A stretch of DNA of 64,000 bases, from the NCBI GenBank assembly GCA_030062745.1, contig CP099839.1:10104118-10168117 (forward strand). Direction: 5' to 3'. Of the stretch, positions 6,650 through 63,597 are shown piece by piece. Source of the stretch: Capitulum mitella (Eukaryota; Arthropoda; Thecostraca; Pollicipedomorpha; Pollicipedidae). The notes under the pieces were generated by a model, which was not told the origin of the DNA, ran no database searches, and saw nothing but the letters and a program-made list of their open reading frames with translations. Within the stretch, counting starts at the first letter, position 1; every line of letters starts with the position of its first letter. The translations under genes and the position numbers were made by a program.

Positions 6650-6795
6650 GGATCAGTCCGCCGCCCATCCGCATCTCTCCGCAGCGCAAGGATCAGTCCA
6701 CCGCCCGTCCGCATCTCTCCTCCGCAGCGCAAGGATCAGTCCGCCGCCCAGTCCGCATTTCTCCTCCACTACGGACAGATCAGTCCGCAGACGGA
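6650..6795. repeat. 40-43 bp minisatellite
   Basis: The word GATCAGTCCGC (one copy GATCAGTCCAC) recurs at 6651, 6691, 6734 and 6777, giving steps of 40, 43 and 43 bp. Between them lie shared CCGCCC.TCCGCATCTCTCC and GCAGCGCAAG words. It sits at the start of the GC-rich stretch that precedes RASL10B, about 1.1 kb before the start codon. It may lie in the promoter or a 5' untranslated region. Confidence 0.8.
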
Positions 6796-7333: not shown

Positions 7334-7452
7334 AGACAGGGGGACTCACCGCCCGACTGAGACCGACCAGACAGGGGGACTTACCGTCCGACTGAGGCCG
7401 ACCAGATAGGGGGACTCACCGTCCGACTGAGACAGCCCAGACAGCGAGACGG
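7334..7452. repeat. 35-bp tandem repeat, 3+ copies
   Basis: AGACAGGGGGACT-type units begin at 7334, 7369, 7404 and 7439, an exact 35-bp step; the last unit is partial (AGACAGCGAGAC). Each unit carries GGGGGACTCACCGTCCGACTGAG with a few substitutions. It lies about 0.4 kb upstream of the RASL10B start codon. Confidence 0.85.
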
Positions 7453-7499: not shown

Positions 7500-7835
7500 G
7501 CAGGTCCTGGTCCGGTGATAGGGACTAGGTCAGGGAGGGTCCTGCTTCCGTTACCGTAGGTCCCCAGGTTAGTGACGGCCCTGTCCCGCTGTTAAGTGCC
7601 CCAAGTCAGGGACGGTTCGGTTCACGTTATCGCGAGTCCCCCAGCCAGGATCTTCACCTGGTTCGAGTATTTGGGTCCAGGTTCGTTACAGCGTCCCCAG
7701 GCCAGTGACAGTGTTCCGCTCCCGTTACAAAGAGGTGTTCTGCTCTCTAGGTGGTCAGTGACGGTGTTCTGTTCCCGTTACAGTGTCCCTGACGGTGAGT
7801 GACGGTGTCCTGCTGCCGTTACAGAGGGTCCAGCC
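7500..7835. repeat. Degenerate repeat with recurring CGTTACAG
   Basis: Irregular units built on (T/C)CCCGTTACAG and CAGTGACGGTGTTCTG words. CGTTACAG or CGTTACAA occurs at 7684-7691, 7723-7730, 7776-7783 and 7817-7824, with steps of 39, 53 and 41 bp. Each copy ends like a weak 3' splice site. The last one (AG at 7823-7824) would be a plausible acceptor for the exon holding the RASL10B start codon if a 5' untranslated exon exists. The repeat is seen directly; the splicing role is inference. Confidence 0.6.
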
Positions 7836-7875: not shown

Positions 7876-7938
7876 ATGGAGGTCATCCGAGTCGTCGTCA
7901 TCGGTGCCCCGCAGGTCGGCAAATCCACCCTTGTCAAG
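7876..7938 (+). CDS. RASL10B: RASL10B coding exon 1 (P-loop)
   Basis: Twenty-one codons from ATG (7876) to a lysine codon, followed by the donor GTAAGT at 7939. It encodes the first beta strand and the nucleotide-binding P-loop GAPQVGKST. No in-frame ATG lies upstream before a stop codon or the acceptor-like sites. An upstream ATG at 7844 is out of frame and overlaps this start, so it could lower translation if the transcript begins before it. The exon ends in phase 0. Confidence 0.9.
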
Positions 7939-10900
7939 GTAAGTGCGCCCGTCTGTAATGCTTCTCCGAGGAGAGCGGCGGCTCGTCCACCCCTGCTCGG
8001 AGCTGCAGCGGCCGGGAGACGGTCCGTGATGAGATGGACGGGGCGGGCAGCGGGTCTTCCCCTGAGTAGAGCTGCAGCGGTCGGGAGACGGTCCGTGGTG
8101 AGATGGACGGGATGGGTAACGGGTCCGTCCCTGCGTAGAGCTTCGGCGGCCGGGGGACAGTCCGTGGTGGGATGGACGGGATGGGTAACGGTTCCGTCCC
8201 TGCATAGAGCTGCAGCAGCCGGGGGACGGTCCGTGGTGAGATGGACGGGATGGGTAACGGTTCCGTCCCTGCATAGAGCTGCAGCGGCCGGGGGACGGTC
8301 CGTGGTGAGATGGACGGGATGGGTAACGGATCCTTCCTTGTATAGAGCTGCAGCGGCCGGAAGACAGTCCGTGATGAGATGGACGGGGTGGGCAGCAGGT
8401 TTGCCGGGGCCGCCTTTGTTTCACCGGGAGGCTCACGGACACCGCTACTGGTCCGTTGCCGAGTTGTTAATGATGTTTATTTAGGGATGGCTATCCGGAT
8501 AGCTGCTACAGCGAGGAATCTGAACCTGTGATTCACAGAGCTTGTTGCGGCTTTTGCTACCGCCTGAACGTCGTGACTCTTGGCTTGCCACTGGCGACCA
8601 AATGCAGGGCCTAGTCCAGTTATCCCATGTCCCGTTCATCGCCGACCACACAATCGGCGATGGCGTGAATCACAACCGGACAACCGGCGTGAAAGGGTAG
8701 ACAAGCGGCTAAATGGATAGAGAGGAGAGAACGCTCCTGAGATTCGTGAGTCAACAAGTCCCGACGTTTTCACAGCGACGATGTCGTTAAACGGTTGACT
8801 GGCCCATTTTTTGATACGCATTGGAGTATTTCATTTTTCCTAAGAGGGTAGTCTTTTTGGTATAAAAACATACCTACGTTACTTTATTGTTCACATTGTT
8901 TGATACTGCCAACTTATGTGCTGTTTTACGTGTGGCTGTTTGTATGAAGGATGTTCATTGTTTGTTATGTTAAAGAAATGTGTAATTAATTTTATTAGTA
9001 TTTTAGCTTAAAAGTATGTTAATGGAAGCGAATCAGACTCAGGGAGAGTAAGAGTGGAGTGGAGCCCGTGCCGTCTAAGCTACTTTCGGACTGTGAAGAC
9101 GGAAGCATGTCCGGCCTGCTCGGCTACCGAGCGCTGCCCGCTCGCGGCTCAACATTTCCGAGCGAAGCCCGCATCATTAGGCCTGAGCCGTGGGAATTGG
9201 CCTGATTTGTCTTTGTTTGCCGTCGAGTGGGGTTTCGGGCGGAGCCGTCCGCCGTGGCGCCAGCAGACGAACCGCGCAACAAAGCCGCGCTCGTCATTAC
9301 CATGGTAACCGGCGGTTGGACGGACCCTATTTTCCGCACTTCCCTGGAGTCTGACAAGGCGCCTTTGTCATGCTAACCGTTTTCTGCCGGCCAGCCGTTT
9401 CCAAGGTGACCGGACCACTCTCGCTAGGCTGGCGCATGCAATATACATTTCTTTATTTTACGAACAATGGACTGGCCCATGCAACATACATTTCTGTATT
9501 TTATGAACAATAATTCATTTTTGCCGATCGCCTGGAGAGCGTGAAATCAGTTGGCTGATGACGAGCGCATCCGGCGCGAACGCGGACCGAGCCGCCAGCG
9601 CTCAAACTTGGCGGTCACGAACTTCAATTTTGTCTCTGGTCACGGCGATTGATCAGCTGAGAAGCTTGCTCATTCCGTCCGGGCGGCGCACGCGGAATAA
9701 TTTGGTTTCAGTCCGTCTCAGCTGTCCAAGTTTGAGGGAGCACCGTTCAGCCCGCAGGCACACATCGCGCATTGCTGAAGCGGACTCTGCGTGTGCGAGG
9801 ATTCGCGGCGGGCCAGCTGAGCCCGCACCAGTGTGGGAAATGGGTGGGAGACGGTGGGACCGGACGCATAATGAGAAATTGTCGCAGTTGGATACTGGGG
9901 CGGATGAGAAAGCAAACAAGGTGAACCGAAACTTGGAGGGCCTTAAGTTTTTGCTCAAAACACCGCGCATAATTTTCCGCAGTTTCGCTTTTATTGTCGT
10001 TCCATTTCGCTGAGGATACCTTTAACTTCCTTCCTACTGCTTGGTTTATAACATTTTTTAGCCATCTCCAGCAATCTTCAGCCTACCTAAACAATGAGCG
10101 ATATCCCGCACCACCACATAAATGGATTCACCCTTGACACAGATGTATGTACACCACTACTGAGTATCCGCACAACTAGCCCTTGTCAATACTCGCCATC
10201 TTCCCAACAACATATCCACCGTCCTCCCTGCGCGCTTTTCCAGCGTCTTTTTTGTTAGCGTATCCGCCGTCCCCGTGCCAGACGTCTACCATCTCTTGCA
10301 CCCTGTCAGCACATTTACTATCCAACAGGACCATCCATCCATGGCACTACGCGTCCTGTCCATATTTGTACGCCCTCATCAGCGATGCTTTTCTCTAGGC
10401 GTAGCTCCTTTCTCTTCACTATTGGCATAAATCCAGCCACAACTCCCTCCACGCCCGTTAAGTAATTTTCAGGAGGCACCCACCGCCATCCACCACGCAG
10501 TCCTTGCCTTCCGTAGCCCCCAGCTGTCCTGGCTCTGACGGAACAGTGCAGGAGCGTCGATTTCTGTAAATGACGGGGGGGGGGGCAAGCCGAGGGCCCG
10601 ACAACATAACCTCCTCCAAGCTTGGGTTTCTGAACGGATTTAGCCCGCTTTATTTTGACCCATGGAAATTCGCAAGATTTTTGTTACTTTTTATGAAATG
10701 AAAAATTACGTTTATCCTAAAGTATAAAGATGTATACGTAGATAGAAAAGAAAAGATAAGATACACCGCTTTAGACTTTAATCCTTTACTTTTTCCTCGT
10801 CTGTTATTTATTGCGGTCGTCATTTTCGTGACCATTATTCATTTCCCTTTAAAACCGGCAGAAAATATCGCAAGGGGCCCAAACCAACATTGGGTGGGCC

Positions 10901-13818
10901 CAAATCAACATTGGACGGGCCCAAATCAACATTGGGTGGGCCAAGGCTCTCTGAAGAGAATACAGATCGGCACCCCTGGAACAGTGTTCTCTAGGCCATT
11001 TAAACCGTTTTCCATCCCGTCCATATTCCATTCATTCCGCCAGAAACGGAGGGTCTGTTGTGTATCGTGCTATTTGGTGAATGGGATACTTCGGAGCTCG
11101 GCGAATGCATTCGCCGAAGCTTTTATCCCTCTGGTTCCATGGAGCCGGCCCGCCAGTCACTGATGCCCTGGTCTCTGATTCCAAGACCAAAAACGCCATA
11201 GCCTTTACCAAGGGCGGACCCAGGAAATGATCAAGCGAGCCTCAATCCCTCACAGCACGATCAAAGCGGGTGAAAATATCCGGGCAACGTGAGCCAGTTT
11301 TGGTATCTTCATAACGGAAATCGTGTAACGATACTGAATGGTTGGAAGCAAATGTTCCATTATGCACCATATTTTGTGAAGCATAGCAAATAACAACGGT
11401 CTATTTTCCCCAAATTATCAATTCAATTTACAATTCAAAATCCCCGTAATCCTCGCTCACACAGTTTGGCCTCTCCTGAAATGCCGGGCTGGAATCGCCC
11501 CTGCGATAACCACGGATCACGTGGTATTGAGTCCTGTGTAACTTCCAATAAAGACGGCGTCCGCGTCGGCCTGCATTCGAGTCTTGTCGGGGCGGCACGC
11601 AGCGAGACACAGCACAGCGATCACGACATCTGCCGGTGAGCCTGGTGACGTCGACGCCCACTTCACGCAACAGTGCGTGCGTGACGGCACAGCGTCCGTT
11701 GACCCGACTCGAGGGTCGGCCCCAGAGGTAACCCGCAAAATCGCACGTTCCAAACAGCTGCACCAATCTTCATGGCTCGGCGCTTCCAGGACAAGGCTTC
11801 AGTTGAAAGGATTAAATCTTCATGGTCTGTTCTTATGTCTCGGACTGCATGCGCTGCGCCGTGGCTGGCGATCCCGGGGATTGGGAGTCCGGACTCCCCA
11901 GTACCCAGGGATTTTAACATACGGCCTATGGCAATGGCTGAAAACAAACAGTCTAAAATCCTTCGTGGACCCCTTTCCCCCAATTACTTTTGGAGATCTC
12001 CAGCCATACAGCGCACGATGCAAGTAGCCAAACGGGTGCTATCGTGATTTCTACCGACTTACGCAAAGTCGGGCCTGATGGTCAATATCGTGCAGAGTTA
12101 CGAATATTTCACTAACGAATAATACTTCCACATACGCAACAACGTCCTATGTTTTTTCTTCGCCATTTTTATTTGAGACATGGCACTGTTTGCGACTTTT
12201 GACAGAAATGTATTACGTACGTATCTGGTCCGCATGATTTGCGAGGATGATGTTTCAGAGCAGAACCAGTACTCAACAGGGTTTGCTGAACGGGCTCTGA
12301 GCCCTACACCCGATCGTGCAATTGCAGATAACGGCTGACTTTGGGGAGAAGACTTGACGTGACGTCAAAGCTACGACATAACCGTGCAGTAGGCAGCATA
12401 ACCCTCTGTTGGCCAGCTCACCCCTGGGCCAGGCGGCGACCGCCAAGGTGACTCGATCGAAAGCGTAGGAACATCCAAAGAAATGTGTGTGTGAGGGAGG
12501 AGGGGCAGGCAGTTTTTGCGTTGGGTTGATGCTAAATTTCCAAAAAGTGCAGGTCATGGATCCTCCGGCCCGCCCCGTTCCTACGCCTATGGACTTGATC
12601 CCGTGCTGTCAGGACAGGGGGACCAGCGCTGAAACCAACGGAGCTACCGACCAGCTGCATTAATACGTCGTAAGGGCACTCTGCTCTGTGCTGCATTAAT
12701 ACGTCGTCGCTGTCTCACGCTCAAAATGCCTATAATTCGTGTTCTGTTCCTGGTTGCGTAAATACGTCTTAATTACCCTGCGCCATGTTGCGCCAAACAC
12801 ACCAGAAGTTCTGTGAAACTTGTTTAGTGCCTTTAGACTGTGCTGTGCGGTGCTTTCAGAGTTTCTAGGCGCCGTGTCGCATCACCGTGTATGGTGCAAC
12901 TGGGTGCCCTGTCTAGTAACCTGATATCACAGCCCGCCGTGCTCCAGCGTTAGCGCCGAACGCTGTGAGCAATAGACTGATGCTCTGTCCGCCGTGTTGT
13001 ACCAGTCTCTGCACACCATTCCCTGAATTACTCTGAGGTACCTGTCCCCGCTGTGTTGCAGCAGTTTGTGCCGACAGTCCTCTGACGTGCCTGTCCCCGC
13101 TGTGTTGCAGCAGTTTGTGCCTGGAGTCCTCTGACGTGCCTGTTCCCGCTGTGTTGCAGCAGTTTGTGCCGGTAGTCCTATGACGTGCCTGTCCCCGCTG
13201 TGTTGCAGCAGTTTGTGTCGACAGTCCTCTGACGTGCCTGTCCCCGCTGTGTTGCAGCAGTTTGTGCAGAGCGCGGCGCCGGAGCGGGCGCCGCGCGCGC
13301 TCTCCGACGGCTGCCCGCGCCACACCTACTTCCCGGCCGTGCTGCTGAACAGCCGGCTGTTCGCCTTCCGGCTGCACGACCTGCCGACGATCCGGCGCTT
13401 CCCGGCCTGCAGCGAGCAGGAGTGGCGCACGTGCCGCGCCATCGGCCTGCGCAGCGCCGCCGCCTACCTGCTCGTGTTCGACCTCACCTGCCCCGAATCG
13501 TTCCGCTACATCCGCACCATCCGCGACCAGATGCTCGAGTCGCGCGACATGCAGCGCGTGCCCGTCATCGTGGTGGGCAACAAGCGGGACCGGGCGGCGG
13601 CGCGCGACTCGCGCGACTTCTCCAACATCGTGCGCAAACAGTGGAAGTGGCCGTACGTCGAGTGCTCGGCCAAGTTCAACTACCGCGTGCTGCACGTGTT
13701 CCGGGAGCTGACGCAGGCGCTGGACGCGCTGCAGCGCGAGGAGGCGCCGCCGGCCGACGCGGCCGAGGCGGCGCGCGCCGCCGACGACGCGCTGTGCCGG
13801 CACTGCGTCATCCAATAG
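7876..13818 (+). CDS. RASL10B: RASL10B-type Ras-like GTPase (2 coding exons)
   Basis: Small GTPase of the Ras superfamily, RASL10 group, expected to bind and hydrolyse GTP and to be lipid-anchored to membrane. Exons 7876-7938 and 13258-13818 join in phase 0 across a GT-AG intron and give 207 aa; human RASL10B is about 203 aa. Visible motifs: P-loop GAPQVGKS (residues 10-17), LHDLPTI where classical Ras has DxxG (RASL10 proteins also lack it there), NKRD (129-132), ECSAK (156-160) and C-terminal CaaX box CVIQ (204-207), predicted to be prenylated. Family-specific stretches include EQEW, GLRSAAAYLLVFDL and TIRDQMLES. The start ATG places the P-loop at the usual distance from the N-terminus. RASL10A is the alternative paralog name. 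Biological targets of this group are poorly known. Confidence 0.92.
7995..8425. repeat. 69-bp tandem repeat, about 6 copies, at the start of intron 1
   Basis: Units beginning AGCTGCAGCGGCC recur at 8001, 8070, 8139, 8208, 8277 and 8346, an exact 69-bp step. Each contains GGTCCGTGGTGAGATGGACGG with few differences. Because 69 is divisible by three, the frame entering from exon 1 stays open through the array to a stop at about 8484, repeating a 23-residue unit with RSVVRWTGW. The opposite strand is also open throughout. I call it a minisatellite, with intron-retention coding only as a possibility. Confidence 0.9.
9430..9518. repeat. 43-bp duplication, 2 copies
   Basis: CATGCAATATACATTTCT at 9435 and CATGCAACATACATTTCT at 9478 head two units. 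Both continue with a TATTTTA.GAACAAT segment, and the step is 43 bp. It is AT-rich and noncoding. Confidence 0.75.
10875..10943. repeat. 21-bp minisatellite, 3 copies
   Basis: GGGCCCAAA(C/T)CAACATTGG units start at 10875, 10896 and 10917, with a partial copy at 10938. The 21-bp step makes a false seven-residue peptide repeat (GPNQHWV) in one frame. I see no sign that it is translated. Confidence 0.85.
13031..13262 (+). repeat. 49-bp tandem array copying the exon 2 splice acceptor (5 copies)
   Basis: CTGTGTTGCAG followed by CAGTTTGTG recurs with the post-AG base at 13062, 13111, 13160, 13209 and 13258, an exact 49-bp step. The last copy is the real start of RASL10B exon 2. Each copy holds the pyrimidine tract, AG and first three codons of exon 2 (Gln-Phe-Val). 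Entered in phase 0, copies 1-4 all reach TGA at the eighth codon. A more diverged sixth copy may lie near 12985-13012. Whether the upstream acceptors are used cannot be told from DNA. Confidence 0.95.
13258..13818 (+). CDS. RASL10B: RASL10B coding exon 2 (rest of GTPase domain and CaaX)
   Basis: 186 codons plus TAG (13816-13818). It starts after the fifth AG of the 49-bp array, because only this copy leads into the conserved family sequence. It encodes residues 22-207: the effector region, LHDLPTIRRFP, the NKRD guanine-specificity motif, ECSAK, an Ala-rich linker and the CVIQ prenylation motif. It is strongly GC-rich with C/G third positions. The Ala/Asp/Glu-rich stretch before the CaaX box is lineage-specific as far as I can tell. 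Confidence 0.93.
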   Translation, partial: QFVQSAAPERAPRALSDGCPRHTYFPAVLLNSRLFAFRLHDLPTIRRFPACSEQEWRTCRAIGLRSAAAYLLVFDLTCPESFRYIRTIRDQMLESRDMQRVPVIVVGNKRDRAAARDSRDFSNIVRKQWKWPYVECSAKFNYRVLHVFRELTQALDALQREEAPPADAAEAARAADDALCRHCVIQ

Positions 13819-63457: not shown

Positions 63458-63597
63458 ATTAGGTTGCTAGGTTGGGTTGTGCTGGGCCAGGTTAGGTAAG
63501 GTTAGGTTAGGTTAAGTTAGGTTAGGTTACGTTAGCTTAGGCCAGGTTAGGTTAGGTTAGGTTAGGTTGGGTTAGGTTACTATGTTAGGTTAGGGTA
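63458..63597. repeat. Degenerate (TTAGG)n interstitial telomere-type array
   Basis: About 140 bp of GGTTA/TTAGG pentamers, many in exact tandem (for example GGTTAGGTTAGGTTAGGTT), with scattered substitutions. TTAGG is the ancestral arthropod telomere repeat. The flanks are ordinary unique or AT-rich DNA, so this is not a chromosome end within the window. Confidence 0.9.

Follow-up and report, generated by a model that had tools for sequence, protein, structure and literature searches.

Why should an intron end in five near-identical copies of its own splice acceptor, four of them leading straight to a stop codon, and does a gene gain or lose anything by carrying such an array? The question is raised by a gene on the plus strand of the window (the whole 64-kb stretch of DNA that was analysed), in which the coding part of exon 1, MEVIRVVVIGAPQVGKSTLVK with its P-loop, occupies 7876..7938 and ends in phase 0. 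There follow a donor at 7939..7944 (AAG|GTAAGT), which fits the consensus, a 5.3-kb intron and exon 2 (13258..13818), which supplies the rest of the protein and closes with CVIQ, presumably a CAAX motif, and TAG, an ending that fits its earlier description as the last coding exon. Joined in phase 0 to the fifth copy of the acceptor (13258), exon 1 opens a frame of 207 residues that matches the Pfam Ras model (PF00071) over profile positions 1-160 of 162, nearly its full length, with an E-value of 8.6e-20 and 71.4 bits against a cut-off of 21.6; the match of exon 2 alone is weaker (E 1.5e-14). The profile match thus spans both exons, and the gene product is a Ras-family small GTPase. The subfamily name RASL10B is the label of the first-pass annotation; our analysis places the protein at the Ras-family level, and no RASL10 chain stood among the best 60 of 445 PDB matches.

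The array before exon 2 is a minisatellite at 13031-13267, to which TRF assigned a period of 49, 4.8 copies, 92% matches and 0% indels. It comprises five units in exact 49-bp steps, each built of TGA[C/G], a pyrimidine tract, TTGCAG and three exon codons, CAG TTT GTG. The 20-mer CTGTGTTGCAGCAGTTTGTG occurs five times at exact 49-bp steps and has no other occurrence at up to three mismatches anywhere in the whole 64-kb window, and 0 of 100 shuffled sequences contained a match to it; TRF and this count together confirm the five-unit structure that the first-pass annotation had described. Used as a query against the genome, with one candidate scored, the array found a single place, the window itself. 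Unit 1 (13031..13079) carries CTGAG, the pyrimidine tract, TTGCAG and CAGTTTGTG, with a decoy exon start at 13062; units 2 (13080..13128) and 3 (13129..13177) carry CTGAC and unit 4 (13178..13226) ATGAC, with decoy starts at 13111, 13160 and 13209, and the partial unit 5 (13227..13267), again with CTGAC, holds the working acceptor and the exon start at 13258, all five starts being as first stated. Two features absent from that first description are present in every unit, namely the branch-point-like TGA[C/G] and a NAGNAG (CAGCAG). The AG is kept in 5/5 copies, and by eye the units contain no clear donor. Substitutions between units fall a little less often within the acceptor core (P 0.04-0.06 in a post hoc test), which is too weak a basis for claiming selection.

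The earlier claims that only the fifth copy leads into the GTPase, and that all four decoys run into a stop within eight codons, both stand: joined in phase 0 to any of copies 1-4, exon 1 gives 28 residues, so that any splicing to them would yield a short frame without the GTPase. Is so regular an outcome a sign of design? The stop met from each decoy turns out to be the TGA inside the branch-point-like motif of the next unit, at 13083-13085 from copy 1, 13132-13134 from copy 2, 13181-13183 from copy 3 and 13230-13232 from copy 4. The A of this motif is placed 25 nt upstream of the last intron base in the array unit, and among 48 acceptors taken from the genome 21 (44%) have a TGAC whose A falls 16-41 nt short of the end of the intron, against 67 of 611 upstream control windows (11%). 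Since TGAC is enriched in this way before acceptors, the motif is probably a branch point that brings its TGA along, and since the exact period keeps the frame equal at every copy, one coincidence is simply repeated. Indeed, when four-decoy arrays were simulated from the 48 genome acceptors, an in-frame stop arose before the real exon in 3191 of 3456 (92%). The recurrent decoy stop needs no selection, and given the branch-point-like TGA and the simulated stops we do not read it as a sign of design. The 48 acceptors, which also served for the score model described next, derive from 50 exons (18 AMP-binding, 32 myosin), of which two (at loci L002 and L018) were dropped because the junction was unclear or the frame broken; 16 AMP-binding and 32 myosin exons remained.

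Could the decoys compete with the real site? The score model is mildly circular, since its acceptors were picked partly by pyrimidine content (TGAC was not used in picking); on it the real site scores 7.21 bits, at the 40th percentile, and the decoys 7.21, 7.21, 6.87 and 7.21. Local sequence cannot tell the decoys from the real acceptor, and the second AG of the real NAGNAG site scores 7.59. Counting the real one, 17 AG sites of the intron reach at least 7.21 bits, and as ten of these lie outside the array, score alone does not decide use. The first-pass annotation had added that decoy transcripts might escape exon-junction-dependent decay; this argument is not safe, because in arthropods a long 3' UTR generally counts for more, and an exon junction for less, in triggering nonsense-mediated decay, and translation that stopped at codon 29 would leave a very long one.

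Such considerations bear directly on the idea, also raised at first pass, of an expression switch tuned by copy number, in which the decoys would compete with the real acceptor and the share of productive mRNA would vary with the number of copies. Five sites of about equal strength and a stop within reach of every decoy are what such a switch would call for, but the first is an automatic result of near-identity, the second arises in most simulated arrays, and ten AG sites elsewhere in the intron score at least as well as the real one. Precedents point both ways. A human CBS VNTR, whose unit (c.1444_1467+7) lies across an exon end, is associated with reduced activity in the title of a paper cited in PMC2630376, whereas the 'mirages' of amphioxus, which are minisatellite-like tandem copies of an exon-intron boundary, are reported to leave regular splicing undisturbed (PMC3087553, PMC3902484). 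Given those reports, we would expect the fifth copy here to be used almost always, or at least mostly. With no excess of arrays at the sampled junctions either, as set out below, we consider the switch to be quite improbable.

Do minisatellites, then, favour splice junctions in this genome? The array-bearing loci described below were found by reading arrays and hence are not countable as a rate, and the unbiased test took exons matched by two Pfam models and asked whether the 40-mer at each junction comes back in the 600 nt on its intron side. It covered 43 acceptors (five of the 48 were short of upstream sequence, and the score limit of 11.5 removed none) and 40 of the 48 donors, after a score limit of 7 and a flank requirement, the donor of L017 being moved by hand to a better site; a few of the automatically picked junctions may be wrong. 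Recurrence at 26/40 or better was seen at 2/43 acceptors against 123/3057 arbitrary anchors in the same loci, and at 1/40 donors against 136/3072; at 30/40 or better the figures were 2/43 against 83/3057 and 0/40 against 81/3072. In a 200-kb sample made up of 20 regions of 10 kb at round coordinates, L033 among them, 3.65% of 4000 anchors reached 26/40. There is no sign of enrichment at these 43 + 40 junctions, among which a two- to three-fold excess could escape, and the impression of enrichment gained from reading loci did not hold up in the anchor test. Arrays of period 15 or more number 36 in the same sample and add up to 6816 bp; at such a density, chance should place a few percent of the genome's junctions within minisatellites.

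The same layout recurs at other genes. Five loci were fetched as encoding AMP-binding exons (L004, L012, L013, L014 and L017). On the acceptor side, L004:2234-2491 holds a 65-bp unit in four copies, whose exon starts fall at 2264, 2329, 2394 and 2459, and a long open frame begins at the last of these; L017:1247-1524 has acceptor copies at 1247, 1370 and 1503 by pattern, with two more between them by eye; L014:1646-1784, on the reverse strand, has copies at 1397, 1450 and 1513 by pattern; and by eye L013:67-359 is a 38-bp acceptor series up to an open frame and L033:3480-4170 a degenerate one into an open frame that looks, we presume, like noggin. L012:2225-2790 shows the donor side, with the exon's own donor at 2225 (GCGCAG|GTGAGA) and 12 more donor-context rows behind it, of which one is degraded (CTCAA|GTACG) and the final two have diverged further. 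The rows of L012 mostly read CTCAG|GTAAGA or GTAAGT and look nearer to the consensus than the real donor does. At a further locus, L009:2240-2265, what may by eye be a GC donor (CCAG|GCGAGT) closes an AMP-binding exon, and a 40-bp minisatellite follows it immediately. The units of the five acceptor series and the donor series are unrelated and their genes independent, and this recurrence of one layout with different units counts against an assembly artefact, in which the copy number would stem from a longer array that was collapsed or a shorter one that was expanded. So do the private substitutions found in each of units 1-4 and the absence of any N from the window. For one mirage of amphioxus the draft assembly is reported to be aberrant; here we think an artefact extremely improbable.

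A different kind of function would be that of a redundant landing platform, with serial branch points and pyrimidine tracts guiding the spliceosome to the end of the 5.3-kb intron and the last AG being chosen. The units do repeat the whole 3' module, and by eye short-period TGACC-rich repeats, which resemble branch points and pyrimidine tracts and for the most part lack AG, lead to an acceptor at two other loci (L005:1275-1476 and L009:300-640). A platform would not fit the donor series of L012, however, and the acceptors tested are not above arbitrary points (2/43 against 123/3057). Furthermore, the six acceptors of another gene in the window have no repeat series, with best matches of 18-23 of 40. 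This gene, on the minus strand at about 18400-54500, consists of exons resembling one AMP-binding gene over some 36 kb, one of them a PF00501 match, and we take it to be ACSF2-like. Overall we judge the platform very improbable.

The surroundings of exon 1 add to the picture of a repeat-rich locus. A degenerate acceptor-like series occupies 7529-7824 on the plus strand, up to the probable acceptor before exon 1 (7824/7825), with copies at 7700-7730, 7753-7783 and 7794-7824. The 40-mer at that probable acceptor recurs at -41 and -94 with 29/40 and 27/40 identical positions, and 1.4% of 1252 anchors in the window reach 28/40 or better, so that the series is somewhat unusual; both acceptors of the GTPase gene end series of copies. 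Three more minisatellites lie around exon 1, at 8000-8392, 7334-7444 and 6650-6788 (periods of 69, 35 and about 44 bp), and by eye none of them includes the exon 1 donor. Elsewhere in the window, 63489-63594 is an interstitial block of TTAGG type (AGGTT, 21.6 copies, 79% matches), TTAGG being the arthropod telomere motif. Runs of TTAGG occur in the window and at loci L024 and L036, and about 330 kb of sequence contained no TTAGGG pair; a telomere repeat was found in none of eight contig ends of 600 bases, one of which is N at both printed margins. The genome also has at least 150 Chitin_bind_4 matches, which mark the host as an arthropod and exclude amphioxus; the TTAGG runs are in keeping with this.

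What best explains the array, then, is very probably a mirage, that is, an ordinary minisatellite that captured the intron/exon 2 junction and is most likely neutral. Its tandem units each carry an exon-intron boundary, the copy adjoining the exon continues into a real coding exon (207 residues with a Pfam Ras match), and the copies retain splice signals (AG in 5/5; 6.87-7.21 bits). On this reading a founding duplication would have spanned the intron/exon 2 junction, copying a complete 3' splice site, from the branch-point-like TGAC through the pyrimidine tract to CAG, together with about ten bases of exon 2, and slippage or unequal exchange would then have raised the number of copies to about five. 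The copy next to the coding exon would serve as the working acceptor and the other four would be spares within the intron. The first-pass annotation had offered a minisatellite that captured a splice site as one of its two readings, and this one is supported by the structure of the array, the same layout elsewhere and the lack of any excess at the sampled junctions.

How far does this reach? Several mirages in an arthropod, at a sampled rate not above background, suggest that splice sites become duplicated by chance in a genome dense in minisatellites. Loci of this kind offer natural experiments on how splicing chooses between acceptors that are nearly identical and exactly spaced, and they can mislead both gene annotation and short-read mapping. 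A bolder proposal would have a few percent of splice junctions, on both sides of introns, sitting in unstable minisatellites, with tandem decoys at many genes, some of which, perhaps including this one, set expression by copy number and feed new introns and alternative exon ends; we consider it unlikely. Full-text searches returned, among the matches listed, no description of mirages in arthropods, which is weak evidence of absence as most subscription papers lie outside their coverage.

Several known systems multiply splice signals in a comparable way. Intron gain by tandem duplication does so too, and differs in that no new intron is seen at 13031-13267. NAGNAG tandem acceptors are likewise present, as CAGCAG, in each copy of the array; their wobble of three bases is distinct from the 49-bp repeat. 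The original amphioxus report of mirages, in Adh, reportedly dates from 2002. Human genes in segmental duplications have internal tandem repeats at exon-intron boundaries, again with splice signals multiplied (PMC2812944). The 31-bp VNTR of human CBS, c.1444_1467+7(16_21), comprises by its notation the end of an exon and the first 7 intron bases, so that donors are repeated; it is unlike the array here in lying on the donor side, in having 16-21 copies and in being polymorphic in people, and as a title cited in PMC2630376 links the VNTR to reduced CBS activity, an effect of junction-spanning repeats is possible in principle. The closest relatives are the mirages of amphioxus, named in Adh3 and also described in the globins BflGb6 and BflGb9, TnC and PGBD5 (PMC3087553, PMC3902484). 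The host here is an arthropod, the unit of 49 bp compares with 10-72 bp in Adh3 and 150-160 bp in the globins, and length instability with normal splicing has been shown in amphioxus, whereas the present array is known from the sequence of one assembly. In both, minisatellite-like tandem copies of an exon-intron boundary are found at acceptors or at donors, AG or GT is kept in many of them, and the copy that adjoins the exon is the working one.
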